Under the pieces are notes generated by a model, which made no database searches, had not been told where the DNA came from, and saw only the letters and a program-made list of their open reading frames with translations. DNA of 64,000 bases from Candidatus Schekmanbacteria bacterium. Lineage in GTDB: Bacteria > CSSED10-310 > JACPHN01. Numbering within the stretch: the first letter of the stretch is position 1; each line of letters starts with the position of its first letter. The translations under genes and the position numbers were made by a program. Location: positions 1-64,000 of the forward strand of contig JACPHN010000045.1 of NCBI GenBank assembly GCA_016188575.1, written 5' to 3'. Of this stretch, positions 5,809 to 64,000 are shown piece after piece.

Positions 5809-5829
5809 AGCACCAGCGTCGACGCGACG

Positions 5830-5880
5830 GCGCCTCCCTCCGTCCCTTCCCTCGCTTGCGGGGGGAGGTGAGGTGGCTGT
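5830..5880. repeat. Dispersed palindromic C/G-rich element, copy A
   Basis: The segment runs CTCCCTCCGTCC, then TTCCCTCGCTTGCGGGGGGA, then GGTGAGGTGG. The arms around CGCTTGCG can pair. The same string, with small changes, occurs at 29206-29267 and, inverted, at 33432-33508. All three lie between genes, as expected for a REP-like repeat. Confidence 0.6.
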
Positions 5881-5898
5881 TGGGGCACGTGTCAATGC

Positions 5899-6066
5899 GT
5901 GAGATGTGCCCCGGTCGCGCGGGGGGCGATTTTGGGAGGCGTGAGACGTCCCCCGGTCGCGCGGGGGGCGATCTTGGGAGGCGTGAGATGTCCCCCGGTC
6001 GAGCGGGGAGCGATTTCGGGATGCGAAAAATATCCGCCGGTCGACCGGGGTCGAATTCGGGAATCT
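5899..6066. repeat. Four tandem 42-bp repeats, each with a hairpin
   Basis: Units lie at 5899-5940, 5941-5982, 5983-6024 and 6025-6066, each exactly 42 bases. Units 1-3 are nearly identical; unit 4 has drifted. Each contains a G/C palindrome: CCCCGGTCGCGCGGGG in unit 1, CCCCCGGTCGCGCGGGGG in unit 2, CCCCGGTCGAGCGGGG in unit 3 and CCGGTCGACCGG in unit 4. The array fills the gap between two convergent genes. There are no spacers, so it is not CRISPR. It could act as a bidirectional terminator, an RNA-stability element or a protein-binding array. Confidence 0.8.
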
Positions 6067-6097
6067 GCTGAGGTCCAGTCGTGCCTACCGCGACTCG

Positions 6098-6814
6098 CTA
6101 CGGCACGGCGGGCGCCTTCGCGGCAGGCTCCGGCGACGCGGGTCTCTTGCCGCCCCGGCCTGCGCGGAGGAAGAACAGGCCGACGTATGACCGCTGGCGC
6201 GGAAAACGCTCGAGGAGGCGTTTTTCCAGTTGATAGAGCACCAGCGAGGCGTCCGCGACCGCGTGCACCAGAGTGCTCTTGAGCCCCGCCTCCGTGACGT
6301 CGCCGGCGTCGCGCTCCACGAGCGCCGCTTGTTGTCGCTCCGCGCGGTCGCGCAGGTCGGTGAGCATCTCCGCCTTGCCGGGGAAGTCCGGCACGTCCGC
6401 GAAGCGCGCGACCGCTTCGAGCACCCGCGTCGGCTCCAGCCGCAGGTCGGCGTCCACGAGGCCCTCCAGGTCGTCGCCAAAAACGCGATCGGCGCCTGCC
6501 GGCAGCGCCGTCCGCCGCAGCTCCAGCCGCATGCGGGCCTTTGCCGCGCGCACGCCGCGATCGAGAGCGTCGTCTCCGACCGTAACCCGAGCCTGGAGAC
6601 GCGCCCCCTCTACCAGGCGAAACCGCTCGAGCGCGCCCTCGGCCTGGGCGACCTTCTCCAGGTGGGCAGCCAGGGCGTCGTGGTCGGTGCCCATGGCGTC
6701 GCGTTGCTCGGCGCTCAGATCCTTGTCCATGCCGCGCGCCGCTTCCAGCGCGTGCATGGTATGTGCGAGCGCGCTGGTCATGGTGGCGGAAGAGCTGTTC
6801 GGCGGAGCAATCAT
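6098..6814 (-). CDS. Conserved hypothetical protein, mostly helical
   Basis: This 238-residue protein starts at the ATG 6814, where GAGGAGG lies six bases upstream; the open frame runs further upstream without a better site. It has no signal peptide or membrane segment. It is highly charged and appears all-alpha, with many Ala, Arg and Glu. The N-terminus is Ser/Ala-rich, and the C-terminus ends in a Lys/Pro/Ala-rich tail after an aromatic RSYVGLFFLRAG segment. I do not recognise the family. It converges with the surface-protein gene across the 42-bp repeats. Confidence 0.6.
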   Translation of the reverse strand: MIAPPNSSSATMTSALAHTMHALEAARGMDKDLSAEQRDAMGTDHDALAAHLEKVAQAEGALERFRLVEGARLQARVTVGDDALDRGVRAAKARMRLELRRTALPAGADRVFGDDLEGLVDADLRLEPTRVLEAVARFADVPDFPGKAEMLTDLRDRAERQQAALVERDAGDVTEAGLKSTLVHAVADASLVLYQLEKRLLERFPRQRSYVGLFFLRAGRGGKRPASPEPAAKAPAVP

Positions 6815-7120
6815 GGTGACCTCCTCGTGTTCTCGGAAGGTTGTTCGGAGTGGAATCGGAACGTCCCCCTTGTACACCGGAGTGATGTAAGGTGCACCGT
6901 CGGGCAATATCGTGGATCCACCGCCAGCTCGCCCCCCGTCGCGCCCGCGGTGGACTGGGCGGCAGCAGACTTCTTTCCAGAGAGCGCCCGCCTGCGCAGG
7001 GCACGGCGGGCGGGCGGCCGAGATCAGGAGGGCGGCGGGCGGGCTGCAGCCGCCGCCTGCCTCCTCAGTCCTCGGGGCAGAAACCGCGCCCGAAGTCCGT
7101 GCAGCTCTGATGAACTACTG
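6815..7120. other. Intergenic stretch with no gene seen
   Basis: About 300 bases separate the start of the unknown minus-strand gene from the end of the TnpB element. Short open frames occur here but none has a ribosome site or recognisable product. It must hold the promoter for the 6098-6814 gene. Confidence 0.5.
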
Positions 7121-8438
7121 CCATCCAAACGGCTACGCCGCTATGGATGGAGTTTCGTGCTTCGACGGGAGCGGAGCCCCCTGCACACCTGGGCCAATTC
7201 CTGACCCCTGGGATAACGCGAATTGAAGACAAACCTGCGCGCTGGCCTGATCGCGCGGCAACACGCAGCCGCATGCTGGGCAGGTCTGCGACGGCTTGAT
7301 CTTCCGCGTCGGGGCTTCCACGAGCACGCATCCAGCTTCTTCCGCTTTGGTGCGTACCATGCCGAGAAACGCCGACGGGGCGCCGTCAAGGATACTCTTA
7401 TTCAAACCGGCCTTTTGCCGGACGTTCTTGCCGGGAGTTTCGACTGTGCCGCGAGCGCTGTGGCTCATGTTGGCGACCGCGAGCTTTTCGGTGGCGAGGA
7501 GCTCGGCGCGTGCGACGAGCTTGGCGGACTGCTGATGCAAGAAGTCCGTACGCCGGTTTGCAATACGTTCATGCTCGCGGCCAAGATACGCCACGGCCTT
7601 TCGACGGTTCTTCGAGCCGCGTTTCTTGCGAGACACCGCCCGCTGGCGGGCCTTGAGCTTGCGTTCGGACTTCTTGAGGAACCGCGGGTTATCCACTCCG
7701 GTGCCGTCATCGAAGGTGAGGAACCGCTCGATGCCCCAATCGAAACCGATACGTTCGGTACCGTGCGCGCGCTCTGGTTCGCAGTTTTGCGTCACCGAGG
7801 CGAACCAGCGGCCGCGTTTGAGCTGGATTTCCACAGTTTTCGGCTCACCTGTGTCGCGAGCTTCGCCGCGAATCTTGATCTCGCCAACGCCTGAAATGCG
7901 CATGGAACCGTGCTTCGGCCTGGGCCCTTGGTTCAGCTTCCACCCGTCGCCGTGTGTTTTGTATCCCCAGCCGGTGAAGCGGCGGAGGGACTTGAAGCGC
8001 GGAAAGCCAGGCGTTTGTCCGGCCTTTACACGGCGAAATAAGGCCTGGAATGCGAGGTCCAGGCGCTTGAGTGTTACCTGGCAGGATTGGGCATTGAGCG
8101 CGGCATACTCAGGATCGTCGGCCCGCAGCTCGGTGAGCTCCTTGCACTGGTCGGCGAAGGTCAACGACACACCGTTTTGTTTCCAGGCCCAGATCCGCTG
8201 CTCAAGCGCGGCATTGTACAGACGCTGATGCAGCACGAAAACCTGCCACAGCATCGCGGCCTGAACCTTCGTGGGGTACAGGCGATAGATTACCTTGCGC
8301 TTGACGATTGCCATACGATCATTCTAGCATCACGCTCATGTCATTGCAAGAGCAATACATTGAACAGCAAAGCCAAGACGAAGAAAGAGAAACCAAGAGG
8401 CGTGCTTCACCTCCACCCAAGCGCTAACGCGCTATGGG
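7121..8438 (-). mobile_element. IS200/IS605-type (IS1341-like) element with tnpB only
   Basis: Subterminal hairpins bound the single tnpB gene. The right-end hairpin is 7121-7150 (CCATCC...GGATGG around ACGGC/GCCGC). The candidate left-end hairpin is 8416-8438 (CCCAAGCGC, loop TAAC, GCGCTATGGG). Both ends share the string CGCTATGG(G)ATGGAG. There is no tnpA, so the element cannot move alone. As is usual for this family, the right-end hairpin overlaps the last codons of tnpB, and the guide-like omega RNA would be made from that end. Exact termini are not certain. Confidence 0.6.
7133..8314 (-). CDS. tnpB: TnpB RNA-guided nuclease with a shortened zinc finger
   Basis: This 393-residue protein is of the TnpB/OrfB type. 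The N-terminal YRLYPTKVQ segment and helical half are followed by a RuvC-like nuclease. RuvC-I is IGFDWGIERFL, RuvC-II is LATEKLAVANM, and RuvC-III is the Asp of PRDQASAQVCLQFAL, so the D/E/D triad is present. The family zinc finger normally has two CxxC pairs separated by about 15-20 residues. Here only TCPACGCVLPRD remains. It looks as if the two knuckles recombined and the middle was lost, so the protein may be inactive or altered. The start at 8314 is the conserved MAIVKRKV. It is likely domesticated or dying; no tnpA lies nearby. Confidence 0.9.
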   Translation of the reverse strand: MAIVKRKVIYRLYPTKVQAAMLWQVFVLHQRLYNAALEQRIWAWKQNGVSLTFADQCKELTELRADDPEYAALNAQSCQVTLKRLDLAFQALFRRVKAGQTPGFPRFKSLRRFTGWGYKTHGDGWKLNQGPRPKHGSMRISGVGEIKIRGEARDTGEPKTVEIQLKRGRWFASVTQNCEPERAHGTERIGFDWGIERFLTFDDGTGVDNPRFLKKSERKLKARQRAVSRKKRGSKNRRKAVAYLGREHERIANRRTDFLHQQSAKLVARAELLATEKLAVANMSHSARGTVETPGKNVRQKAGLNKSILDGAPSAFLGMVRTKAEEAGCVLVEAPTRKIKPSQTCPACGCVLPRDQASAQVCLQFALSQGSGIGPGVQGAPLPSKHETPSIAA

Positions 8439-9191
8439 ATGGAGCACTGCACGCCTGTCCGGTAGAAGCCGTCGCTGGCGCAGTCGCAGAAGGCGCTGCC
8501 GGCGTCGCCGCGGACCTCGTCGCCCGGGTCGGAGCCGGCGAAGATCCAATCGAATCCGTTACCCCCCCTCGATGAGGTCGGCACCTTCGTCGCTCGGATC
8601 CGCCGGCTGAACGTCACCGAAGATCATGTCTGCGTCCGCTTCACCGAAGATCTGGTCGTTACCGGCGCCACCGAAGAGGCGGTCGAGCCCGGCGCTACCG
8701 TGGATAGAGTCCTCACCGGGGCCGCCGTAGATCGTATCCGCTCCCGACTCACCGTTCAGCTCGTCGTTGCCTCCGACGCCCCGCAGGTCGGTGGCATCCT
8801 GGTCGGTGTCGCCATGAATGGTGTCACTGTCGGCTCCGCCAAAGATGGTGTCGTCGTCGCCTCCGCCGAAGATGACGTCGCTGCCGGCGTTGCCGTAGAT
8901 TCGGTCGTGCCCCCCGGCGCTCGGGTCAAACAGAGGGCAGAGCCCCTCGTCCCGGCGGCAGGAATCGCCGAAGATGGTGTCATTGCCATTGCCACCCGCG
9001 ATGACGTCCTGGTCCGCGCTCCACTCCTCGGGCGTCCAGATTGCCGTGTCGCAGTCGCAGTGATCGGCTCCATAGAGCTCATCGTCGCCGTCTCGGCCGA
9101 GGAGCCGGTCGTGGCCACCCCCACCGTACACGGTGTCGCGGCTGGGGCCGCCCACCAGGAAGTCGTCTCCGTAGGACCCGTACAGTTTCAT
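8432..9191 (-). pseudogene. RTX (haemolysin-type calcium-binding) repeat protein, frameshifted
   Basis: From the ATG 9191 the frame runs through about 12 glycine/aspartate nonapeptides of GGxGxDxI type, such as GGGGHDRLLG and GNGNDTIFG. These form a calcium-bound parallel beta-roll, and such proteins are usually exported by type I secretion. The frame stops at 8559 inside a run of seven G (C7 on the plus strand, 8562-8568). With six G the sequence continues as EGGNGFDWIFAGSD and on to a Cys-containing tail ending at 8432; the corrected length is an exact multiple of three. The tract is therefore a real or technical slip site. The uncorrected product would be 210 residues. Confidence 0.8.
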
Positions 9192-50139: not shown

Positions 50140-50367
50140 ATGCCGATGGCCGAACGGGACCCTTGGGCGTCCGTCGAAGACGTCGCCAAACATCTCGGGA
50201 TCGCGAAGGACACGGTCTACCGCTGGCTCGAGTCCAAGGTGCTGCCTGCGCACAAGATCGGTCGGCTCTGGAAGCTCAAGCTCACCGAGGTCGACGAGTG
50301 GGGGCGCAGCAGAGGAGCGACGGAAGGCGAACCGACGAGCACACGGGTTGAGGAGACGAGCGAGTAG
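50140..50367 (+). CDS. Excisionase-like helix-turn-helix protein
   Basis: This 75-residue protein matches the small winged-HTH (excisionase, MerR-like) form: PWASVEDVAKHLGIAKDTVY followed by RWLESKVLPAHKIGRLWKLK. Start ATG 50140 has GGGAG just upstream. Its stop touches the RadC start (TAG then ATG), so they are translated together. Such proteins bind DNA as autoregulators of defence or mobile operons. It is the first gene of the operon. Confidence 0.8.
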   Translation: MPMAERDPWASVEDVAKHLGIAKDTVYRWLESKVLPAHKIGRLWKLKLTEVDEWGRSRGATEGEPTSTRVEETSE

Positions 50368-51075
50368 ATGTCCTACGTGGAAGGCCATCGTCAGCGACTG
50401 CGAGACCGCTTCAATGGAAGTGGGCTCGGAGCGTTCGAGGATCACGAGGTCCTCGAGTTGCTGCTGACGTACGCCGTGCCGCGGAAGGATGTGAAACCCA
50501 TCGCGCGTGCCCTGCTCGATCGCTTCGGCTCCGTGTCGAACGTCCTCGACGCCCCAACGGCCGAGCTCACCAGTGTCGATGGCGTCGGCGACACGGGCGC
50601 CACGCTGCTCCACCTGATGCCGTCGTTGACGCGCCGCTACCTGCGCAACCGGTGGGGCCACAAGCCGCAGCTTACCACCCGCGAGGACCTCGCCCGCTTC
50701 GCCGTGGACGAGCTGGCGACGGCCAACAACGAGGTCTTCCTGCTCATCCTGCTCACCCACGAGAACCACGTCCTTCGTGCGCTGCCGCTCCACGAAGGCA
50801 GCCTAGCCAGCGCTCCGGTGTACCCCCGACTCGTGGTGGAGGCGGCGCTTCGTCATCACGCGGCCAAGGTCGTGTTCGCGCACAACCACCCCGGAGGCGT
50901 CGCGGAGCCCTCCGGCGAGGACGCCGCGATCACCCGCACGCTAGTCTCAGTGTTCGACTCCCTCGCGATCCCGGTCGTCGACCACCTCATCGTCGCCGGC
51001 CCCCGAACCTTCAGCATGGCCGAAGCTGGTCTCCTCCGAGCCACACAGGCACAGCCGCTCGGAGGTGCCGCATGA
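50368..51075 (+). CDS. radC: RadC-family JAMM (MPN+) protein
   Basis: This 235-residue protein has the helix-hairpin-helix segment (SVDGVGDTGATLLHL) and the zinc-dependent MPN+ motif with H172-N-H174 in AHNHPGGVAEPSGED. The RadC family is linked to mobile elements and defence islands; a role in DNA repair is disputed. It overlaps the helicase gene by ATGA, making coupled translation likely. Length and motifs are normal. Confidence 0.85.
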   Translation: MSYVEGHRQRLRDRFNGSGLGAFEDHEVLELLLTYAVPRKDVKPIARALLDRFGSVSNVLDAPTAELTSVDGVGDTGATLLHLMPSLTRRYLRNRWGHKPQLTTREDLARFAVDELATANNEVFLLILLTHENHVLRALPLHEGSLASAPVYPRLVVEAALRHHAAKVVFAHNHPGGVAEPSGEDAAITRTLVSVFDSLAIPVVDHLIVAGPRTFSMAEAGLLRATQAQPLGGAA

Positions 51076-54000
51076 GCCCCGCCATCGAGAAGGACATGGT
51101 GCTCGAGGGCCCGCTTTGGCCCGAGCCGGTCCGCGTCCTCTGCGTCGACTGCTTCGGCACGATGCTCCAAGTCGACGCCGTCGGCACCCGCACGCGGCAG
51201 TTCTACCCGGGCATCATCGTGACCGCCGCGCAGGCGGATGGCCTCAAGGTTGTGTCGAGCGCGAAGGGAATGGACTTCTCGGGCGACCCGGAAGCCTTCC
51301 ACCTCGCCATCGAGGCGATGCGCATCCGGCTCGCCTACGAGTATGACCCGTACTTCGCGGTCAACGCCTCGACGATCACGCCGCTGCCTCATCAGCTCGA
51401 CGCGGTCTACCGCTACATGCTGAAGTCGCCGCTCGTTCGCCTCCTGCTCGCGGACGATCCTGGCGCCGGCAAGACCATCATGGCTGGCCTGCTCCTGAAG
51501 GAGCTGCGCTTCCGGGGGCTCGCCGACCGGGTGCTGGTCGTCGTGCCGCCGCTCATCGCCCGCCAGTGGCAAGAGGAGCTCTCGGGTAAGTTCTCCGAGG
51601 AGCTCTCGATCATCGATAACGGCGTGTTGAAGGCCAACGTTGGTCGCAACCCCTGGATCGAAAACGACCGCTGCATCACCTCGCTCTACTGGGCTGCGCG
51701 GGACAACGTGCTCGAGACGCTCAAGGAGGCGGACTGGGATCTGGTGATCGTGGACGAGGCCCACAAGATGGCGGCCTACCGCCAGGGCGTCCGCTCGCAG
51801 AAGACCCGAAAGACCCGACTCTACCGGCTGGGCGAAGACCTCTCGGCCCGCACCAAGCATCTGCTGCTCTTGACGGCGACGCCCCACAAGGGCGATCCCG
51901 AAAACTTCCGCCTGCTGCTCGAGCTGCTCGACAAGGACCTCTTCGCCGACCGGCACATCCTGGAGGAGGCGATGTCCTCCTCGGACAACCCGATCATCCT
52001 CCGTCGCCTGAAGGAGGAGATGTGCCACTTCGACGGGAGGCCGCTCTTTCCGCAACGAACCGTGAAGACCGTCGCCTTTGACCTCAGCCGGGCCGAACGT
52101 GACCTCTACGACGAAGTCACCGAGTATGTCTCCGAGCACTTCAACAGGGCGATGCAGAAGGAGAAGCGCAACGTCGGCTTCGCCATGACCATCCTGCAGC
52201 GGCGCCTGACCTCGAGCCTGGCTGCCATCACCGCATCGCTCACGCGCCGGCACGAGCGCCTGCAGACCCTTCTCGACCAGGTCCGCGCTCTCGCCGCCAC
52301 CAAAGCGGGCGGCGCGCTTCGCGGCAGCGATGGCGACGCGACTCTCGAAGAGCTGCTCGGAGGCGCCGAGGTCGACGATCTCGATGACCTGTCCGAGGCC
52401 GAGCGGTGGGATGTCGAGGACTCCCTCCTCGAGCGCCACACCAACGCCGAGTCTATCGAGGAGCTGGAGGCTGAGGTCCTCGCCCTCGAGCGACTCGCGC
52501 GGCGGGCCCGTGGCGCGCTCGGCAGCGGCATCGAGGCCAAGCTGGTCCAACTGACGGACGCCATCCTGCGCGATGAAGGCCTGGCAGCGCGCGGCGAGAA
52601 GCTCCTCATCTTCACCGAGGCGAAGGATACGCTCACCTTCCTCGTGAGCCAGCTTCGTGCGCAGGGTTTCAAGGTCGCCGTCATCAATGGCTCGCTCTCG
52701 ATGGACCAGCGACGCCAGCAGCAGGTGCTGTTCCGGGGCGAGGCGCAGATCATGGTCGCGACGGAGGCGGGTGGCGAGTCCATCAACCTCCAGTTCTGCA
52801 ACCAGATGGTCAACTACGACATTCCGTGGAACCCCAACCGCCTCGAGCAGCGGATGGGCCGCATCCACCGCATCGGCCAGAAGAACGAGGTCTTCATCTT
52901 CAACCTCGTGGCCACCGACACCCGCGAGGGCGCCGTGCTGGCGGCGCTCCTGCGCAAGATGGAGGAGATGCGGCAAGGGCTCGGCGCCGACCGCGTGTTC
53001 GACCTCGTCGGCGACCTCCTCGATGACCACGAGATCTCCCTCGCCGACCTGATCATCGACTGCATCACGAACCGCCGGCGGCTCGCCGACGCCGTGGCCA
53101 GCATCGAGCAGGCCGTCAGCCCCGATCACGAGGCGTCGCTCAATGCAGCCCGAGAGGAGGGGCTCGCCCGCCGCTTCGTGAACCTGCCCGAGCTTCGTCA
53201 CGAGGCGGCTCGCTCGGCAAGTCAGGCGTTGCTCCCGTCGCACCTCGAGAGCTTTTTCACGCGCACCCTGGAGCGGAACCGCGGGCGCTGGGAGCGGCGG
53301 GCGGACGGGAAGCTCCGCGTCGAGCGTGTGCCGGTGAATCTGCGGCACGAGCAGGAGCTCGACTTCCGGCGCCGTTACGGCACCGTGGAGCGTGCCTACC
53401 TCTCCCTGACCTTCGACAAGGCCGCGGTCGGCGAGGACGGACGCACCGAGCTGCTCGGCCCGGGGCATCCACTCTTCGAGTCGGTGCTCCAGGCAGCCGA
53501 GGTCGGCTTTACCGACGCCCTCGCGCGCGGTGCCGTGTTCTTCGACGTCGATGCACGCGCGCCCGAGCGCCTCTGGTTCTTCCGCGGAGTCGTCGGCGAC
53601 GGCACTGGACGAGTCCTCTCGCAGCGCCTCTTCGCTGTCCGCGAGGTCGTTGCCGGCGGCGGCACCGCCCTCGCGCCGGCGCACCCGATCCACCTCCACG
53701 ACCTTCGTCCGCGCTGCGATCGGGCTCCGCCACCGCCCATGATGGACTTCGCCGCGTGCAAGCACGCGGCTACGCGTTACTGCCTCGAGCAGATGGTGCC
53801 GCGCCTTGTCGACGAGGTTGCGAGCGGACGCCTGAAGGAGCTCGGGCTCAAGGAGCGCTACCTTGAACGATCCTTCCGCGTGGTGATCAGCCGGCACGCC
53901 GACAGGCTCCTCGATCTCGAAGCGAAGTCGGGGGCGGGGCAGGACATAAGCCTGGCCGTGGGTCGCGAGCAACGGCTGATGAATGAAGCCAGGCGGCGGC

Positions 54001-54491
54001 AGCAGGAGCGCCTCGCCGAGGTGCGGCTCGAGCAGCAGCTCGTCCCGCGCGCCCCCGAGCTGCTCGGCGTGGTCACCGTGTTGCCCGCCGAGGCAAAAGT
54101 AGGCGACGCGAAGGCAGACGACAAGCTGCTCGCCCGCGTGCGCGAGGTCGAGGCGGCGCACGGGCGGGCTCTCGAGGACACCCGCGGCGAGGGGCTCGGC
54201 TTCGACGCCATTGCGCGCGATGCCGACGGCCAGGACGTGCGCTTCGTTCTGGCCCGCACTCTCGATGCCGATTCGCGCCTGTGGCTCCGCGCGACCGAGT
54301 GGGCGCAGGTGCAGCACCTGGGTGATCGCGTTCAGATGTACGCCGCCCGCGATGGTCAGCTCCTGACGCTGGCCGCGAAGGACGCGGCGCGCGCCGCCGA
54401 CATCGACGAGACGAACCGAAGGGTCTCCATCCGCCTCGCCGGGCTTCTGCTCCCGCTGGCGGCAGCGCGTGATGTGAGGAGCGAAGCATGA
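51072..54491 (+). CDS. SNF2-type helicase of a helicase-methylase-ATPase defence system
   Basis: This 1139-residue protein starts at ATG 51072, overlapping radC. It has the SNF2 two-lobed motor: Walker A DDPGAGKT (K134), DEAH at residues 228-231 (VIVDEAHKMAA), a second-lobe helicase C region near 500-690 with QRMGRIHRIGQ, and a long C-terminal region. Enzymes of this class translocate along DNA without strand separation. Together with the DUF1156 methylase and DUF499 ATPase directly downstream, it forms a recognised phage-defence architecture. Its stop overlaps the methylase start by ATGA. Confidence 0.9.
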   Translation: MSPAIEKDMVLEGPLWPEPVRVLCVDCFGTMLQVDAVGTRTRQFYPGIIVTAAQADGLKVVSSAKGMDFSGDPEAFHLAIEAMRIRLAYEYDPYFAVNASTITPLPHQLDAVYRYMLKSPLVRLLLADDPGAGKTIMAGLLLKELRFRGLADRVLVVVPPLIARQWQEELSGKFSEELSIIDNGVLKANVGRNPWIENDRCITSLYWAARDNVLETLKEADWDLVIVDEAHKMAAYRQGVRSQKTRKTRLYRLGEDLSARTKHLLLLTATPHKGDPENFRLLLELLDKDLFADRHILEEAMSSSDNPIILRRLKEEMCHFDGRPLFPQRTVKTVAFDLSRAERDLYDEVTEYVSEHFNRAMQKEKRNVGFAMTILQRRLTSSLAAITASLTRRHERLQTLLDQVRALAATKAGGALRGSDGDATLEELLGGAEVDDLDDLSEAERWDVEDSLLERHTNAESIEELEAEVLALERLARRARGALGSGIEAKLVQLTDAILRDEGLAARGEKLLIFTEAKDTLTFLVSQLRAQGFKVAVINGSLSMDQRRQQQVLFRGEAQIMVATEAGGESINLQFCNQMVNYDIPWNPNRLEQRMGRIHRIGQKNEVFIFNLVATDTREGAVLAALLRKMEEMRQGLGADRVFDLVGDLLDDHEISLADLIIDCITNRRRLADAVASIEQAVSPDHEASLNAAREEGLARRFVNLPELRHEAARSASQALLPSHLESFFTRTLERNRGRWERRADGKLRVERVPVNLRHEQELDFRRRYGTVERAYLSLTFDKAAVGEDGRTELLGPGHPLFESVLQAAEVGFTDALARGAVFFDVDARAPERLWFFRGVVGDGTGRVLSQRLFAVREVVAGGGTALAPAHPIHLHDLRPRCDRAPPPPMMDFAACKHAATRYCLEQMVPRLVDEVASGRLKELGLKERYLERSFRVVISRHADRLLDLEAKSGAGQDISLAVGREQRLMNEARRRQQERLAEVRLEQQLVPRAPELLGVVTVLPAEAKVGDAKADDKLLARVREVEAAHGRALEDTRGEGLGFDAIARDADGQDVRFVLARTLDADSRLWLRATEWAQVQHLGDRVQMYAARDGQLLTLAAKDAARAADIDETNRRVSIRLAGLLLPLAAARDVRSEA

Positions 54492-57201
54492 CCGACAGGC
54501 GCCTCATCGAGGACAGCCTCCCCCTCGCGGAGATCAGCGAAGAGAGTGCAAGGGAGAAGACCCTGCGCGTCGGCAATCCGTCTGTCCTTCACCCTTGGTG
54601 GGCTCGGAGGCCACTCGCTGCATGTCGAGCTGCGGCGTACGCTGCCCTGCGACCAGCTCCTCGCGACGAGGCAGCACGAACCGATGAGCTCAAGCAGACC
54701 GCGGCAGTGGCGCAATTCGATGGTTCGGGTGTCGAAGTGGCCGCGGCGAAGTTCCGTACCGGTTCCTTCCGTGTCCTGGATCCGTTTTCCGGGGGGGGCA
54801 CATTCCCGCTGGCCGCGCAGCAGCTCGGGTGCGAGGCCTACTCCACAGACCTGAACCCTGTCGCATCGATCGTGCAGGTTGCGACACTAGCTCTAAACCA
54901 AGAGTGGGGAGCGCTCGACTCCTCGCCCGTGGAGGCTTCAGCGGGCACGCTATTCCCCCAGGACGAGCGGAAGAAATCCATGCTGTTCGAGGCAGTCAAG
55001 AACTGGACTTATCGAATCGAAGAGAATGCTCGCGAGGTGCTCGAGCCACTATATCCGGCCGTCGTCGCCAACGAGCGGATTACCGCGTATCTATGGGCAC
55101 ATACCATCCCGTGCCAGACCCAGCATGCAGGGCTACGGTTCCACTCATTCGCCAGACCTGGCTGTCGCAAAAGCGGAAGGGGGGAAGCACGGCTCTGAAG
55201 TTGTTGGCGGACCGGGCCGCTAGAACGATTGAGTTCGAGGTAGTCACGGCAGAGGAGCTTGGCTTCGATCCGTCGGTCGGAACGATTGTTCGGGGCAACG
55301 CGCGTTGTCCGCTCTGTGACGAGGTCACTTCGGCCAAAGATGTTCGACGTCTCGGTCAAGAGGGCAAGCTTGGAGAACGTCTACTCTGCGTCGTTACGGA
55401 CCGTACTGGAGAGTCTGGAAAGATGTTCCGGCTGCCGCGATCTTCTGACCTAGACGCGGTAGCTCATGCCCGCCGACTCCGCAGAGACCTCGATTCTGCC
55501 GAGCTTGCTCCAGGACTGAGCGCGCTGCCGAACGAACCGCTCCCGCCGCACGGAACCCTCGGATTCCGGATTCAGAACTATGGCTACAAGACGTGGTCTG
55601 ACCTGTTTACTGATCGGCAGCTTGTGGCGTTGTCAACTCTCTCTCGACTGGTCCATGACTCTCACGGCGAACGCGTACGCGAGTTTGCGAGACTGGGCCA
55701 TGACGAGTCTGCGCGTTTCGCGGCAGCCGTCACCACGTACCTCGCCCTCATGGTTAGCCGCCTCGCGAACTATTGCTCTCGGCAGTGTTGGTGGCTCTCC
55801 ATTGACGGCGAACGTATCGCCAACACCTTTGGCCGACAGGCCGTGTCGATGACGTGGGATTATGCCGAAACGTTCCCTTTGAATCCGCTCTCTGCGAATT
55901 GGGACAACGCCCGGTCTGCCGTGCTCTCGGTGCTGGAGTTCCTGCCACGAAACAACCCCGCTACTGTCCAGAGTGCTAGTGCCGACCGGCTGCCCTTTCC
56001 AGACGGCATGTTCGATGCGGTCTTGACGGATCCGCCGTACTACGACGCGGTGCCGTACTCGGATCTCAGTGATTTCTTCTACGTGTGGCAACGACGGATT
56101 CTGCACGACGTACATCCCGCGCTCTTCCGAACCGACCTGACACCGAAGCGCGCTGAGATCGTGCAAAACCCAGTTCGAGGGAAGGATGCAGAGAGCTTCG
56201 AGCGCGGGATGCGCGACGCCTTTTCGGAGATTCGACGGGTGCTGAGAGACGACGGGTTGGCCGTGGTCGTGTTCGCGCACAAGACTACCCACGCATGGGA
56301 AACCATGCTCGCCGGTCTGCTCGCCTCTGGGCTTGTGGTGACGGCGTCGTGGCCCATCGAAACCGAGCAGCGCGGACGACTGCGTGCCCAAGCATCGGCA
56401 AGCCTCGCATCCTCGGTCTTCATCGTCTGCCGCAAGCGATCCGCTCACGATGATGGCTTTCTCGATGACGTGGAGCCCGCCCTGAAGACCCGTCTCCACG
56501 AGCGCCTCGACTACTTCTGGTCGCAGGGTATCCGCGGCGCCGACTTCTTCATGTCGGCCATCGGCCCCGCCGTCGAGGTTTTCGGGCGGCACAAGCGGGT
56601 CCTCAAGCTCAGCGGCGAGGAGGTCACGATCGCCGAGCTGCTCGACAAGGTCCGCGGCATCGTCGCCGACTACGCCCTGCAGCGCATCGTTCACGGCGAG
56701 GCCGCCGGCAACGTTGACCAGGCCAGCCGCTTCTACGTCATCTGGCGCTGGGCGTTCGGTACGTCGGAGGTCGAGGCGGGCGAGGCCATTCACATGGCGC
56801 AGTCGATGGGCTGCGAGCTCGACGAGCTCGTGGCCGACAGGGGCGTGCTCAACAAGAAGGGCGACAAGGTCAACCTCAGGGGCCCGCTCGACCGCAAGAG
56901 GGTGAAGGGGCTCGGCGAGCCGGCTGCCACCGGCGCCCTGGCCCCGCTCATCGACGTGCTCCACCGGGCCGTGAACCTCTGGGCTGCCGGCGAGCGGCAG
57001 GACCTCGCCGACTTCCTCGCTGCAGCCCTGCCCCCAGGAGGTGTCGACCGCATGCAGCGCCTCGCGCAGAGCGTCGTCGACGTGCTGCCTCCGGGTGACA
57101 AGGAACGCGCGCTCTACGAGAGCTTCCTGGTCGGGGCGCGCTCGCTGCCCGGACCGACGAAGAAAAACGAAGTCGTCAGCAGGCAGCTCAAGCTGTTTTA
57201 G
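54488..57201 (+). CDS. DUF1156 adenine-specific DNA methylase (frameshifted, mosaic)
   Basis: The gene is one unit of 904 residues if one base is restored near 55118. The first frame (54488-55198) begins LIEDSLPLAEISEESAREKT and holds motif I (VLDPFSGGGTFPLAAQQLG). The continuation to 57201 begins PACRATVPLIRQTWLSQ and holds motif IV DPPYYDAVPYSDLSDFFYVW. The 2714 bases plus one give 905 codons. A run of eight G (54791-54798) lies inside motif I. GC at third positions is clearly lower between about 54560 and 56460 than at either end, so the middle has a different origin. It should methylate DNA for self-recognition; as written it is broken. Confidence 0.85.
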
Positions 57202-57212
57202 GAGACGAAGCC

Positions 57213-60101
57213 ATGCCCATCACAACTCCTTGGCGGCAGATCGTTACGCCCCACGACAACATCCGGCAGGGCCGGGTGAAGCAGAACGACTTCGCCGCGA
57301 GCCTGGCAGACGTGTTGCACCACCGGGGCAACGCCGACTACTACGACCCCGTGCGCTTCCTCAACCGCACGTTCCTCACGGCGGGGCTGCGACAGCTCGC
57401 GGGGGAGGTGGTCGGTCGACTCACGGGTCAGGGCGACGGCGATGCGGTGATGCAGATCCAGACGCCCTTCGGTGGCGGCAAGACGCACACGCTCATCACG
57501 CTCTACCATCTCGTGAGGAACGGCCGAGCGTGCTTCGATCACCCGGCCCTGAGCGCGTACTGGCTCGGTCGGGGCTGGAAGGTGCCACCGAGCGTCGCCG
57601 TCGCGGCCTTCGACGGGAATCAGGTGGGCGTCGGCGCTGTGGAGGTGGAGCCGGGCCTGTCGGTCCAGACCATGTGGGGCCACCTGGCGTGGCAGCTCGC
57701 CGGGCGGGCTGGCTACGAGCTGATGCGCAACTTCGACGCCAACCGCGTCTCGCCGAGCGGCGAGGATATCGACCGGGTCCTCGAGGCCGCGGGCGGGGGG
57801 CTGATCATCCTCGACGAGGTGGCGAGCTACGTCGAGACCGCTGCCGCCGTGGCTGTCCACGACTCGACTTTGGCGGCGCAGACGCGTACCTTCCTACAAC
57901 GGCTCGCCACGCGCGCCGGTCATCACGAGCGCGTGATCCTCGTCGCCACGCTGCCGCGCAGCGATGGCACGCAGACGCACGGCATGGCCTCGTTGCAGGT
58001 GCTGCAAGCGCTTCAGGAGCTATTCGGTCGCGTCCAGAAGGTCCGCGAGCCCGTCGCCGGAGACGAGGTCCACGAGATCATTCGCCGCCGCCTGTTCGTG
58101 CCCTTCGGGCAAGACACCGAGGACAAGGGGACCCGCACCAGGAAGGGAAAGAACCGCGACGCGACCATCCATGCGTACGTGGCCGACCTCAAGACGCGTC
58201 CGCAGGTCCCGGACTTCGCCAAGGAGCACACGTACGCCGAGCGCTTCAGGCAGAGCTATCCCTTCCACCCGTACCTGCTGGACGTGATCAACCGCTACGT
58301 CGGCGCCAACCCCAAGTTCCAGCGTACGCGGGGCGTGCTCCGCATTCTCGCACTGGTTGTCGCCGATCTGCTCAAGAACAACCACAACGGCGGACTTATC
58401 CAGGCGAGCGACATCGACCTGACCAACGAGGAGATCCGGTCCGAGGTGCTCGAGCTCGTCGATCGTGAGTTCCGATCGGCGCTCGAGGCCGACATCATCG
58501 GCGGCGGGGCGAACGCGATCGACCTCGACCGCCAGAGCCCACAGATGACGCAGTGGCACATCGCGGCTGGCCTGGCGGCGACGACCTTCCTGTTCACCTG
58601 CGAGGCTGGGAACGGCTCGCGAGGAGCGACGCTCGCGGAGCTGCATCTCGCGTCCGCCCGGCCCGAGATCGACTTCGGCACGATCCCCGGCGTCGTGCTG
58701 CAGATGAAGGAGCGCTTCCACTTCATCAACACCGAGGGCGAGCGCTTCCGCTTCTCGACGACGCCGAATCTCAACCGCATCCTCCTCGACGCCAAGAACG
58801 GTGTCGATGACGAGCAGGCACGCGAGCGTCTCGAAGCCGAGATCCGCAAGCTGCTCTCTCAGGCTCCGCTCTCCCCCTACATCTGGCCCGAGGGTCCAGG
58901 GGACATCGCCGACAGCGCGAGCAACAAGCTCGTCGTCATGCCGCCGGAGCGAGCCTTTGGGCCTGCGAGCCGAGCCGAGACGCAGGCGGCCGTCCTCGAC
59001 ATCCTCAACAAGAGTGGGTCCACACACCGCACGCGGCGAAACACCCTCGTGTTCCTCATCGCGGACGAGGGCGAGGTCGCGCTGCTCAAGGAGCGCGTGC
59101 GCAGCCTGCTGGCTGCCGAGAACGTCGACACCAACCGCGAGCGTCACAACCTGTCGAAGACCCAGGTCACGCAGCTTCAGACGGAGAAGACCAACGCGGC
59201 CAAGGGCGTACGCCAGCAGATCCTCCGCGCGTACCGCCACACTGCGTGGGGCGGCAGCAACGGCGACCCGCTCAAGGCGATGGACATGGGGCAGCCGCCG
59301 GCCACCACTGATCAGAACCTCACGGACCTCGTCGTGGCGTTCCTGAGGGAGAAGCAGAAGTACCTCGAGCAGATCGCGTCGATCCTCCTCGTGCACCCGA
59401 CCAAGCTCCAGGTCTGGCCCGAGGACGAGCCTGCGCTCAGGCTCAAGGCGCTCCCCGGCTACTTCCGCAGCTTCACGCACCTGCCGATTCTCAAGGATGA
59501 CGAGGTCCTCAAGCAGTCGATCGCCGACGGCGTGCGCGCTGGTCACTTCGCGCTCTGTGAGGGAACGAGCGCCGCGGACGCGAAGGTCCTCCACTACAAG
59601 ACCAGTCTCACGACCACCGGCGTCGCACTCGACGATGGCTACCTCCTGGTGCGACCGGCGTTGGCCGAGCAGAAGCTGCAGGAGGAGAAGGCCAGGGTCG
59701 TGGGTGGAACCTCGGTCGTGACCGTCACCCCGACCCCGCCGACCGGCGTCGCGCAGCCGCCCTCGGGGACGGGCCCGGCTCCCGTCGCGCCCGCAGGGGG
59801 AATGGGAGCGGGCGGCGCAACGATCACGACGACACCGACCGGGACGAAGCCGTCAACGGGCAAGGACGGCAGGCCGCGTCGCGTCCGGCTCGACGTCGAA
59901 GTTCCGTTCACCGACTTCCACACGTTCTACACGGGCATCATCAACGCGCTCGGGCGCAATGCGGACAAGATCGAGATCAGGGTCCAGGTCGAGGCGTCGG
60001 CGGCGGCCGGCTTCAGCCCGACGCTCATCGAGGACACGGTCAAGGAGACGCTGTTCAACCTGTTCCACACCGACGACCTCCTCACCGTAGCCGAAGACTA
60101 G
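57213..60101 (+). CDS. DUF499 ATPase of the defence system
   Basis: This 962-residue protein starts at ATG 57213, 11 bases after the methylase. The DUF499 family has an N-terminal AAA-type ATPase with Walker A TPFGGGKTHTL (K90) and Walker B GLIILDEVASYVE near 190-202. A long helical and beta middle follows. A Pro/Thr/Gly-rich linker (about 840-890) precedes a small C-terminal domain (VRLDVEVPFTDFHTFYTGI). DUF499 proteins nearly always accompany DUF1156 methylases and helicases in defence islands. The exact step it drives is not known. Confidence 0.9.
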   Translation: MPITTPWRQIVTPHDNIRQGRVKQNDFAASLADVLHHRGNADYYDPVRFLNRTFLTAGLRQLAGEVVGRLTGQGDGDAVMQIQTPFGGGKTHTLITLYHLVRNGRACFDHPALSAYWLGRGWKVPPSVAVAAFDGNQVGVGAVEVEPGLSVQTMWGHLAWQLAGRAGYELMRNFDANRVSPSGEDIDRVLEAAGGGLIILDEVASYVETAAAVAVHDSTLAAQTRTFLQRLATRAGHHERVILVATLPRSDGTQTHGMASLQVLQALQELFGRVQKVREPVAGDEVHEIIRRRLFVPFGQDTEDKGTRTRKGKNRDATIHAYVADLKTRPQVPDFAKEHTYAERFRQSYPFHPYLLDVINRYVGANPKFQRTRGVLRILALVVADLLKNNHNGGLIQASDIDLTNEEIRSEVLELVDREFRSALEADIIGGGANAIDLDRQSPQMTQWHIAAGLAATTFLFTCEAGNGSRGATLAELHLASARPEIDFGTIPGVVLQMKERFHFINTEGERFRFSTTPNLNRILLDAKNGVDDEQARERLEAEIRKLLSQAPLSPYIWPEGPGDIADSASNKLVVMPPERAFGPASRAETQAAVLDILNKSGSTHRTRRNTLVFLIADEGEVALLKERVRSLLAAENVDTNRERHNLSKTQVTQLQTEKTNAAKGVRQQILRAYRHTAWGGSNGDPLKAMDMGQPPATTDQNLTDLVVAFLREKQKYLEQIASILLVHPTKLQVWPEDEPALRLKALPGYFRSFTHLPILKDDEVLKQSIADGVRAGHFALCEGTSAADAKVLHYKTSLTTTGVALDDGYLLVRPALAEQKLQEEKARVVGGTSVVTVTPTPPTGVAQPPSGTGPAPVAPAGGMGAGGATITTTPTGTKPSTGKDGRPRRVRLDVEVPFTDFHTFYTGIINALGRNADKIEIRVQVEASAAAGFSPTLIEDTVKETLFNLFHTDDLLTVAED

Positions 60102-60102
60102 C

Positions 60103-61287
60103 ATGCTGGCACGCATCGAAATCAAGGCCTTCAAGTCGATACGCGAAGCTGCGATCGACCTCGGCGAGGTGAACGTATTCATCGGCGCCAATGGCAGCGG
60201 GAAGTCCAACATTCTCGAGGCCATAGGCGTCCTGGGAGCAGCCGCGGCGGGTCGCGTCGATGATGAGGCGTTGCTTCGACGCGGCGTTCGGCCCGGGGTG
60301 CCCGCGCTCTACAAGACGTCTTTTCGTGGCGAGCGCGTACGCGACGCGATCCGGTTCGGCGCCTTCGCCGGGAGCTCGAGCTACGAGGTGGAGCTCAACA
60401 ATCCCATCGACCAGCCACGCCCCGCATGGACCTTCAAAACCGAGAAACTCGTCGTCGAGGGCAAGAAGGTCTTGGGCCGCTCGCGAGCGTCGGTGAGCTA
60501 CCAATCACTCGACCCTGAGCAGGGGCTTGCGGCCCTGAAAGCGGTCAGTCTGGCTCCGGGCTCGGCTGGTTCGAGCCTGCTCAAGGAGCTCAGAGAGTTC
60601 GCGATCTACGCCCCCAACACAGCTTCCCTGCGGGGCCTCGTCAGCGACTCGCAGTCCCGGGCGCCTGTTGGCCTCGCTGGCGGCAGACTCGCGGAGGCCG
60701 TCGAAGAGCTGCGGCACCTGGCTCGCGGAGACGAAAGAACCGAAGAAGTGGTCGAGGACGTCCTCGGACTCGTGGACTGGGTGGAGACGTTCGGAGCGAA
60801 GGCGGGGGCAAGCGTTCCCCTGTCACCCACGATCCCACGCCAGCAACGCGTGCTCTTCTTCCGTGATCGCTTCATGGCTGAGGGTCGGAATGAGGTCAGC
60901 GCCTACGACACCAGCGAGGGCGCCCTCTACGTGCTCTTCGCCGCGGTCGTGGCAATTCATCCGGAAAGCCCGAAGTTCCTTGCGGTCGACAACTTCGACG
61001 CTACCTTGAACCCGCGCCTGGTGCGCGCCTTGATGGCCGCGGTCGGCCAATGGGTGCTGGGCAGCGGCCGTCAGCTCCTCCTGACCTGTCACAATCCCCT
61101 CGTACTCGATGGTCTCGCGCTGCAGGACGACCGCGTGCGGCTGTTCGCCGTGGACCGTTCGGCAAGGGGCTTTACCGCGGTCCGTCCCGTCATCGTCGAC
61201 GACGCACTGCTGGCCAAGGCCCGCGAGGGTTGGCCGCTCTCTCGCCTTTGGGTCAGCGGAAACCTTGGGGGAGTCCCCAATGTATAG
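60103..61287 (+). CDS. ABC/SMC-type AAA ATPase (OLD-like)
   Basis: This 394-residue ATPase starts at ATG 60103, one base after the DUF499 stop. MLARIEIKAFKSIREAAI and Walker A GANGSGKSN (K34) place it in the AAA_21/RecF-like group. LAVDNFDATLNPRLV carries the expected Walker B region but with Asn-Phe where these ATPases normally have Glu (D-E-x-x), so hydrolysis may be altered. HNPLVLDG is the H loop. Such ATPases are typically partnered by a TOPRIM or other nuclease and act as phage sensors. It overlaps the TOPRIM gene by eight bases. Codon use is a little less GC-rich than for its neighbours. Confidence 0.85.
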   Translation: MLARIEIKAFKSIREAAIDLGEVNVFIGANGSGKSNILEAIGVLGAAAAGRVDDEALLRRGVRPGVPALYKTSFRGERVRDAIRFGAFAGSSSYEVELNNPIDQPRPAWTFKTEKLVVEGKKVLGRSRASVSYQSLDPEQGLAALKAVSLAPGSAGSSLLKELREFAIYAPNTASLRGLVSDSQSRAPVGLAGGRLAEAVEELRHLARGDERTEEVVEDVLGLVDWVETFGAKAGASVPLSPTIPRQQRVLFFRDRFMAEGRNEVSAYDTSEGALYVLFAAVVAIHPESPKFLAVDNFDATLNPRLVRALMAAVGQWVLGSGRQLLLTCHNPLVLDGLALQDDRVRLFAVDRSARGFTAVRPVIVDDALLAKAREGWPLSRLWVSGNLGGVPNV

Positions 61288-61981
61288 CGTGCGGCTGGTC
61301 TGTGAGGGGCCCACGGATCTCGAGGTGTTCCGGGCCGTGTTGGATGCCCACCTGGACGGAGCGGACTACGGCCTGAGCATGCTGCAGCCGAATGGAGCCC
61401 TGTACGGCGGTAGCGCAGGGCCGCATGGCGGCGGATGGAAAGGCGTACGCGGCTGGTGTCAGGAAGTGGCCGCGCAGGGGGGGGTTCAGGCGATCGGCGC
61501 GCTGAGTTTCGACACCGACCTCCTGGTCATCCATGTGGATGGCGACATCGCCGGGGAGAAAGAGCACCAGGTGACTCAGCCATGTCCGCCACCAGCAGCG
61601 ACTGTCCTGGCCGTTGAGCGGCTCGTTTGCGACTGGCTTGGGGTTGCCAGCCTACCGGATCGCGTTGTGCTGTGGGTGCCGAGCATGGCAACGGAGGCCT
61701 GGGTGCTGCGTTCACTCTTTCACGGCCTCCCCGAGTCCCAGTCGTGCCTGGCACCGCAGGCTCCCCCCGACTGCGTGGAGTGTCTTGCTGACCCTGCCAC
61801 GGTACTGCTCGGCCGCTTGCCCAAGCTGGTGAAGCGAAAGCAGGGTGAGCTCAAGAAGATTCGAATCGCGTACGTCGCCGCGCGCGCGAAGCTGGCGGCA
61901 TCATGGTCCGACCTGACTGGCCAGCTTTGGTCGGCGCAGCGGCTTCAGCAGGGACTGAATCGGTGGGTGCCGACACCATGA
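61280..61981 (+). CDS. TOPRIM-like partner of the AAA ATPase
   Basis: This 233-residue protein starts at ATG 61280 (GGGGGAG six bases upstream). TOPRIM acidic residues are E9 in [10 protein letters not shown] and D87/D89 in [10 protein letters not shown], with an exposed C-terminal helical region. In OLD-like and PARIS-like pairs the ATPase binds or restrains a TOPRIM nuclease that attacks nucleic acid or tRNA when phage proteins are detected. I do not assign it to a named type. It overlaps the following McrB gene by ATGA. Confidence 0.75.
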
Positions 61982-64000
61982 ACGAGCAGGCGCACAACAT
62001 TCTCAACCGGTACGTGGCCACGGAGCTCGGGCGGTCCTTCGTCCTTCCCGACGTCACCGAAATCTCGCGGCAGCGCGCGGCCTTCCTCGCGCACTTCGGT
62101 CCGGAGCAGCTCGCCAGGATGAGCGGGCCGGAGTTGTTGCGCCAGCTCCCGCACAACGCGTCGAACGAGCAGCCCATGGACTACTGGCTGGAGTTCAAGA
62201 ACGACGACGAGCTCAACTACTGGCTCTTCGGCAGCATTTCGGGTGGATCCGCAGCCAAGTTTGGGCCGTGGCAGGACAAGAAGACCGGCGCGTGGCGGGC
62301 GAGGCGGCCAGGCTCACGCTCCATCCACAACATCAGCGAGGACGAAGCCCTCAAGGCCCTCGAGGAGCGCCGCAGCGAGATGCTCGATGCCGTGGAGGCG
62401 GTGCGCATGTTCCACCGCAAGCCGGTGGAGGCCATTGACCCGCAGGCCTTCCAGAGTGCCATCGAAGCCGCTGCGCCGCGCTGGAGCTCGAGCGCGTGGC
62501 AGCACAAGTACCTGCACCTGAGCTTCCCCGACCTCGTCACGTGGAGCGCCACGCCGGCATGGTCCGAGGCCGAGCTCTACTGCGTTGGCGTGGTTCCGAC
62601 TGGCACGGGGCTCTACGCCCAAGACATCCAGATCATCCGGTTCTGGAACAGCCTGCCGGCGTTGAGCGAGTTGCCCGTCCAGCTTCGCTATCGGGTGGGC
62701 AAGGGGCTGGCCCCACGCGACCACTGGTGCCTTGGCCTCGCCGGCGAAGTGTCTGCGTGGAAGGAGATGCTCGCCCACGAGTACCTCGCGCTCGGGCCCG
62801 CGAGGGTGGGCAACCTCGCCGAGGCTATCGCGCTCAACAAGAAGCGCGACATCCGGCTCGCGGTCGAAACCGCCTTCCAGGACGCGGGCCTGAGCGTCCT
62901 CTCAACCGAGGCGCGCAACCTCACGGAGCTCGCCTACCGGCTGAAAGAGGGCAGCGTCGTGGCCTTGTTCGCCGACGCGTCGACGGTGGTGGTGGTCGGA
63001 GAAGTGACGGGCAGCTATCGCTTCGCCCACGGCGCGGAGCGTCCCCACCAGGTGCCGGTGCGCTGGCACCACAACCGCAGCTTCGAAACCTCGGTGCCCG
63101 TCGAGGTGGGGACGAACCTGATGATGCTCGAGCCGACGCACGCGGCCGTGGCCGATGTGGAGGCCTCGCTCCTGGTCAATGGGGTGGGACCGTGGCCAGG
63201 CTTCAGCAACATGGTTGACACCCCGTCGGTCCTGCCGTCGAAGCCGTCGGTCGTCTCCGGCAACGTGCTCTCAGGCGCCAAGATGGACCCGCCGCCGCCC
63301 CTCGAAGGCGTGGCGCGTCAGGTCGTGGACATGCTCGACCGCAAACGCCAGGTCATCCTGTACGGGCCGCCGGGTACCGGGAAGACGTATCACGCGGAGC
63401 GCATCGCCCTCGAGGTCGTCGCCCGACAGAACTTCGACTGCCTGCCGTCGCAGCTCTCCGACCGGCAGCGCGATGCGGTCTACGGACGGGGTGGCGCCGA
63501 CCCCTACATCGCGACCTGCACCTTTCACCCGATGTACTGCTACGAGGACTTCATCGAGGGGTACCGGCCGGCCAGTGACGGCTTCAGGCTCGAGCCTGGT
63601 ATCTTTATGCGGATGGTGACCGCGGCACAGGCGCAGCCGGCCAAGCGCTTCGTCCTCATCATCGACGAGATCAACCGCGGGAATATCCCCAAGATCTTCG
63701 GCGAGCTCATCACCCTCATCGAGACGTCGAAACGCGGCACGGCGAGCGCGCTTCTTCCGCTTTCGAAGAAGGCGTTCACGGTTCCCGACAACCTCCTGGT
63801 CATCGGCACGATGAACACGGCGGATCGATCGATTCTGCTCTTGGACACCGCGCTTCGCCGACGCTTCGCCTTCAAGGAGCTGCTCCCGGAGCCGCACTTG
63901 CTTCGGACAGGTGCCATTGCCGACATTGCCCTGAGCACGTGGCTGCGCGCGCTGAACCGCCGCATCGTGGAGCAACTCGGACGCGATGGCCGCAACCTGC
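61978..64000 (+). CDS. mcrB: McrB-like GTPase (partial)
   Basis: Translation from ATG 61978 gives at least 674 residues and runs off the window. The N-terminal 450 residues are a DNA- or signal-recognition region with DUF-like character ([28 protein letters not shown]). An AAA+ GTPase follows with Walker [12 protein letters not shown] (K469), Walker [13 protein letters not shown] and the McrB signature MNTADRSI. McrB moves along methylated or modified DNA with the nuclease McrC, which should lie just downstream. It belongs to the same overlapping transcription unit as the helicase-methylase-ATPase genes. Confidence 0.9.

Follow-up and report, generated by a model that had tools for sequence, protein, structure and literature searches.

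A compact gene run joining Hma, a PDC-M31 ATPase–TOPRIM pair and McrBC as a probable stack of mobile defense modules in Candidatus Schekmanbacteria

We examined the first 64,000 bases (the window) of a 70,260-base contig from the 9.2 Mb draft genome of a Candidatus Schekmanbacteria bacterium. Contig positions 50140-65699 hold a run of nine plus-strand genes, which encode a helix-turn-helix (HTH) protein, a RadC-family protein, HmaA, HmaB, HmaC, PDC-M31A, PDC-M31B, McrB, and McrC (Table 1). We consider it probable that this locus is a co-transcribed stack of independently mobile defense modules, namely an Hma core, the PDC-M31 pair, and an McrBC type IV restriction system.

Eight of the nine genes begin within the window, and mcrC, the ninth and last, lies past its end. 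An earlier note, made from the letters of the window, had described eight same-strand genes that overlap or lie no more than 11 bases apart. Their coordinates and family matches bear this out, with successive junctions of 0, -4, -4, +11, +1, -8, -4, and -4 bases, the last being that of McrB and McrC. The note had also proposed extending the contig to look for mcrC and the operon end; the gene is indeed there and completes McrBC, and we take the run to end with it because the next same-strand gene begins 398 bases downstream. Upstream of the run are ordinary genes (kdp genes, dnaG), and past the 398 bases follow a beta-helix protein and a kinase. With such flanks around a tight plus-strand run, the nine genes look like one compact defense insert. 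Scans for promoters and terminators within the operon gave nothing convincing above shuffled sequences, using a sigma-70 consensus that may not suit this organism. Judging from profile scores, chance is no explanation for family matches of 673 bits (HmaA), 482 bits (HmaC), 523 bits (full-length PDC-M31A), and 3e-44 (the AAA+ motor of McrB).

Table 1. Genes and domains of the defense run, in contig coordinates.
Feature	Coordinates	Strand	Evidence
Small excisionase-type HTH protein (HTH_17)	50140..50367	+	Pfam HTH_17 5.7e-14
RadC-family protein (helix-hairpin-helix + JAB metallo-domain, HNHPGG motif)	50368..51075	+	Pfam RadC 2.8e-33
HmaA, Swi2/Snf2 helicase	51072..54491	+	PADLOC HmaA 2e-202, 673 bits, residues 50-1058; DrmD-like 680 bits
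Degenerate C-terminal PD-(D/E)XK (NOV_C-type) nuclease domain of HmaA	53979..54488	+	Motif alignment, Pfam, model
HmaB, DUF1156 N6-adenine methylase	54488..57201	+	Pfam DUF1156 2.5e-19; PADLOC HmaB 1.9e-31 (first part), 4.4e-84 (second part)
HmaC, DUF499 ATPase (BrxC-like)	57213..60101	+	Pfam DUF499 1.8e-40; PADLOC HmaC 8.8e-145, 482 bits, residues 5-946
PDC-M31A, OLD/AAA_21-type ATPase	60103..61287	+	PADLOC PDC-M31A 1.2e-157, 523 bits, residues 1-394
PDC-M31B, TOPRIM-fold putative nuclease (EGPTD, HVDGD motifs)	61280..61981	+	PADLOC PDC-M31B 1.4e-35, 121 bits
McrB, AAA+ motor of type IV restriction system	61978..64347 (window part to 64000)	+	E. coli McrB 6hz4, phmmer 3.2e-44; Pfam AAA_5
McrC nuclease	64344-65699 (outside window)	+	Pfam McrBC 7.6e-33; intact PD...DAKYK motif

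In other genomes, these modules occur apart. Near full-length relatives of PDC-M31A, 38-59% identical, were found at 80 loci in many phyla, and, once three plasmid loci are added, M31B directly follows M31A at 74 of the resulting 83, with the two genes usually overlapping. HmaB, HmaC, McrB, and McrC are absent from all 80 in the available flanks (up to 10 kb on each side). Weak SNF2-helicase matches appear in two of these loci, and RadC in one, 8 kb off and on the other strand. For Hma, we fetched 119 loci by tblastn with distant queries, which could miss very divergent RadC or McrB and in which contig ends truncate some loci; PDC-M31 or canonical McrBC was present in 0 of the 86 loci testable 3' of HmaC, and a same-strand RadC lay upstream in 1 of the 48 testable for it, there ~2 kb away and not adjacent. 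Gene order A-B-C is the rule among these relatives. With the cut-offs used, HmaC relatives occur in 15% of sampled genomes of Acidobacteriota, 19% of Chloroflexota, and 3.5% of Pseudomonadota; the source phylum is represented by eight genomes in the comparison set. McrBC is also found without either partner: Azospirillum carries a full-length relative without Hma or M31; the only plasmid McrB relative covering at least 80% of the query sits next to its own McrC and has neither partner beside it. Because the three do not co-occur elsewhere, we treat Hma, M31AB, and McrBC as separable modules.

The earlier note had favored a single system and had named co-occurrence in other genomes as its test, which the idea has now failed. 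A single strand with gaps of at most 11 bases would suit a multi-enzyme system that co-evolved as a unit, with RadC, M31AB, and McrBC serving Hma as dedicated subunits, but the zero counts in both directions and the lone distant RadC largely refute that arrangement, and we consider it highly improbable. What stands of the note's proposal is the mixture itself: modification and type IV systems together with a pair that is probably abortive, on what is likely a single transcript.

Base composition also differs among the modules. Guanine-cytosine content at third codon positions (GC3) is 0.88-0.89 in HmaA and HmaC, which equals the level of housekeeping genes, and 0.87-0.88 in McrBC, 0.75-0.78 in M31AB, and 0.70-0.76 in HmaB; these differences would fit a methylase and an M31 pair that each have a history of their own. 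The low HmaB value beside those of HmaA and HmaC would suit an exchange of the methylase on its own.

The Hma-like character that the earlier note had given to the helicase, DUF1156, and DUF499 genes is supported by PADLOC, which finds all three of its Hma families here (Table 1). By these matches, the core is Hma, described in PADLOC in 2021 (PMC8565338) and also known as the DUF499-centered Type-1 system related to BREX (bacteriophage exclusion), abbreviated Type-1 BR. It shares with such systems a tripartite core of SNF2 helicase, DUF1156 N6-methylase, and DUF499 ATPase, in that order, and all nine genes of the run have an assignment, none of them to DUF3780, which marks Type-2 BR, or to PglZ or iSTAND families, which mark Type-3 BR (PMC12839542). 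It departs from them in a helicase nuclease without catalytic E and K, a methylase whose frame is broken in the assembly, and added genes on both sides, namely two further modules at the 3' side and HTH-RadC at the 5' side. Comparison of HmaC with Protein Data Bank (PDB) sequences gave no match.

Loss of the helicase nuclease active site is the one unusual feature of the operon. An active C-terminal PD-(D/E)XK domain is reported for Type-1 BR helicases of 79% of taxa and is therefore usual, not obligatory (PMC12839542); the window HmaA very probably lacks such activity. Its helicase motifs are intact (GAGKT, DEAH, QRMGRIHRIGQ), and at residues 1059-1062 it reads VLAR in place of IEVK, with the preceding GFD kept and the catalytic E and K lost. 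All 65 comparable relatives retain IEVK or LEVK, the comparison comprising 66 alignable helicases; loci L186 and L189, which hold broken or fused copies from the same genome with an unalignable domain and without the motif, were left out. Pfam NOV_C finds no match in the window HmaA, compared with 76-91 bits in four relatives. The domain is still predicted to adopt a PD-(D/E)XK fold (predicted local distance difference test, pLDDT, 87), with structural Z scores of 10.7 for Hjc and near 10 for restriction enzymes. Since VLAR replaces IEVK within a retained fold, the alignment and the model indicate that the nuclease has kept its fold and very probably lost catalysis. An indel as the origin of the degenerate motif was ruled out, as the residues on either side align in an unchanged frame and the codons differ only by substitution.

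HmaB, previously taken as one gene, does belong to the DUF1156 family, but as sequenced it comprises two open reading frames, 54488-55198 and a second frame ending at 57201, with the break near 55,100-55,130; the frames of the three Hma genes are thus not all intact. The note's mention of a "corrected operon" hints at this break. The motifs DPFSGGGT and DPPY are intact, methylase motifs are present on both sides of the break, and homologues with unbroken frames are found elsewhere. The break may be a sequencing error or decay: rpoB of the same genome has no frame break, yet other Hma copies in that genome are split. The genome holds at least four further DUF499/Hma-like loci (L185-L189, on contigs C197, C242, C226, C75, and C135); several are frame-split or cut at contig ends, and in L186 the helicase reading frame runs into the C-terminal part of the methylase.

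Together with the substituted HmaA active site, the hmaB break and the split or truncated DUF499/HmaA loci elsewhere in the genome could mean that the Hma core has decayed into pseudogene remnants and that only M31AB and McrBC still work. HmaA and HmaC, however, are long intact frames with GC3 at the housekeeping level, the motifs of the HmaA helicase and of the methylase on either side of the break are preserved, and the break itself may be a sequencing error. We therefore regard a decayed core as unlikely.

The ATPase–TOPRIM pair reported earlier corresponds to PDC-M31, with both PADLOC profiles matched near full length by adjacent genes that overlap by 8 bases. PDC-M31B has no Pfam family match, and its assignment draws on motifs and a model. 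In an alignment of 42 sequences, E9, G10, T12, D13, and D87 are invariant and D89 is near-invariant, and the AlphaFold2 model from this alignment has a pLDDT of 90.5. VIA-align gave Z scores of 7.3 for the OLD TOPRIM (6nk8), 7.0 and 6.3 for AriB (8ux9_A, root-mean-square deviation 4.5 over 173 aligned; 8v46_D), and 4.9 for retron Eco2; the OLD and AriB scores stand above the other rows and under 8, and a Z below 8 is weak when taken alone. Because motif conservation, the structural matches, and an OLD-type partner point jointly in one direction, PDC-M31B is likely a TOPRIM protein. Foldseek with the model returned nothing with E of 0.001 or lower, with PARIS and retron Eco2 lower in the list, and the PDC-M31B profile found nothing meaningful among PDB sequences. 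PDC-M31A relatives were not found in viral contigs, and a search of the available literature returned no paper on PDC-M31.

Among the known systems nearest to the pair is PARIS (phage anti-restriction-induced system; AriA-AriB), which responds to Ocr-type DNA mimics by cleaving tRNA. Both comprise two genes, for an OLD-type ATPase and a TOPRIM nuclease (putative in PDC-M31), both occur beside restriction systems, and the predicted PDC-M31B structure has some resemblance to AriB, at Z scores under 8. PDC-M31A nevertheless falls outside the AriA family, the best AriA profile scoring 69 bits compared with 523 for its own. Type I restriction genes are the commonest neighbors of PDC-M31A, about a dozen of the 80 loci lying inside or beside them. 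In six of these, M31AB is preceded by hsdM and hsdS and followed by hsdR (L039, L045, L057, L064, L070) or flanked by hsdM and hsdR (L060). This placement in several lineages suggests a role for the pair as a restriction guard, as described for PARIS and PrrC (PMC12707154); OLD-TOPRIM pairs and other nucleases are also known as backup effectors beside BREX/BR systems (PMC12839542). On the Enterobacter plasmid pE5_001, M31AB occurs without Hma, next to genes annotated as SAVED-domain, ThiF, and Mov34.

The last two genes form an McrBC system. The McrB recognized in the earlier note is homologous to the E. coli McrB motor and carries the MNTADRS motif, the overlapping McrC has an intact PD-(D/E)XK active site, and in all of these it resembles known type IV McrBC. 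In McrBC, the N-terminal domain of McrB recognizes modified cytosine. The window McrB differs in its ~440-residue N-terminal region, a putative sensor for which residues 1-440 have no Pfam match; it is rare, and among 388 Pseudomonadota genomes only one has a relative, which leaves too few sequences to model its structure.

Other Hma loci are also stacked. An extra stretch of at least 500 bases separates hma genes in 40 of the 65 loci with all three genes placed, and the 83 proteins embedded in Hma loci include 17 with an AAA_21 match (OLD-like ATPases) and 4 with a DUF4276 match. At L206, HEC-01A and HEC-01B, an OLD-type ATPase and a DUF4276 TOPRIM protein, lie between HmaA and HmaB. L252 (Pseudomonadota) holds HEC-02, an McrB-like AAA_5 protein (PDC-M26A), and a DUF2357/PDDEXK_7 nuclease between HmaB and HmaC (2544-9128 in operon orientation); it is a second Hma locus with an OLD-type ATPase and an McrBC-like pair, from other families, and hence a convergent version of the window stack. 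L146 (Acidobacteriota) carries a DarT-macro (DarTG-like) fusion and a HEC-01-like ATPase between the same two genes (about 6278-9028 in operon orientation). Modules embedded between hsdS and hsdR have been described as well (PMC12255303). The window pair shares with HEC-01 and HEC-02, defined in PADLOC-DB through guilt by embedding, the combination of OLD-type ATPase and TOPRIM protein in an Hma locus, yet it belongs to another family (84 bits for the best HEC-01A profile, compared with 523 for PDC-M31A). The modules are also not strictly embedded, as had been claimed: they are present in the run, but hmaA, hmaB, and hmaC are contiguous and the modules follow hmaC. Because modules of these classes, though different ones, occur at other Hma loci, the stacking theme is already known, and this combination is new.

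These precedents bear on a further explanation, in which the effector was swapped: once the downstream nucleases had been recruited, the Hma nuclease was inactivated with its fold kept, and McrC, M31B, or both now cut on behalf of one integrated system. Such an account would fit the loss of IEVK in the window alone among the 66 helicases, the intact catalytic residues of McrC and M31B, the tight coupling of all genes, and the presence of other nucleases near Type-1 BR loci that lack a fused nuclease (PMC12839542). It rests on a single locus, however, and M31AB and McrBC own their ATPase or sensor parts and stand alone elsewhere. We judge it quite doubtful, mainly because extra modules are also frequent in relatives whose nuclease is intact, so that extra nucleases do not predict loss. 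If it were true, methylation-based self recognition would license the nuclease of another system.

Under our preferred reading of a stack of mobile modules, three layers would operate independently. In the first, N6-adenine methylation by HmaB would label self DNA, and an HmaC-HmaA motor complex would search out DNA lacking the label and act on it. With the fused nuclease almost certainly dead catalytically, as its motif and model suggest, this action would proceed by translocation alone or through another nuclease. In the second, the OLD-type ATPase would serve as sensor and the TOPRIM protein as nuclease, most likely together acting as a PARIS-like guard; inactivation of the adjoining restriction machinery by a phage would set it off, probably with an abortive outcome. 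In the third, McrBC would cut foreign DNA with modified bases. Three points weigh against this reading. Seven of the eight junctions are overlaps of 4-8 bases or gaps of 0-1 base, possibly reflecting longer co-selection than a chance stack would; the methylase frame break and the dead nuclease could mean that the first layer is decaying; and the nearest HmaC relative is ~36% identical, so the survey compares distant cousins.

The locus would be a clean natural case of defense layers within one probable transcript, a restriction core, a possible restriction guard, and a modified-DNA nuclease, in an order that mirrors the steps of the phage counter-defense race. Because PDC-M31AB is tied to restriction operons at the six hsd loci, the guard idea is directly testable. 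The dead helicase nuclease raises the question of whether Hma can defend without cutting or borrows the nuclease of another system.

At the front of the run, the HTH gene resembles MAD1 of MADS (NCBIfam MAD1 60 bits, below the cut-off of 80; PADLOC mad1 8e-10), and its product is a possible operon regulator. The RadC protein passes the NCBIfam subfamily cut-off (TIGR00608, 157 bits) and may be a hitchhiker; a literature search found no association of RadC with DUF1156 or Hma. Past the window, at contig positions 69631-70260 (L004:9632-10259), a HEARO RNA (Rfam RF02033, 90 bits) lies directly 5' of an RRXRR protein with an IscB-type start that runs off the contig end, and the two form an IscB-omegaRNA unit.

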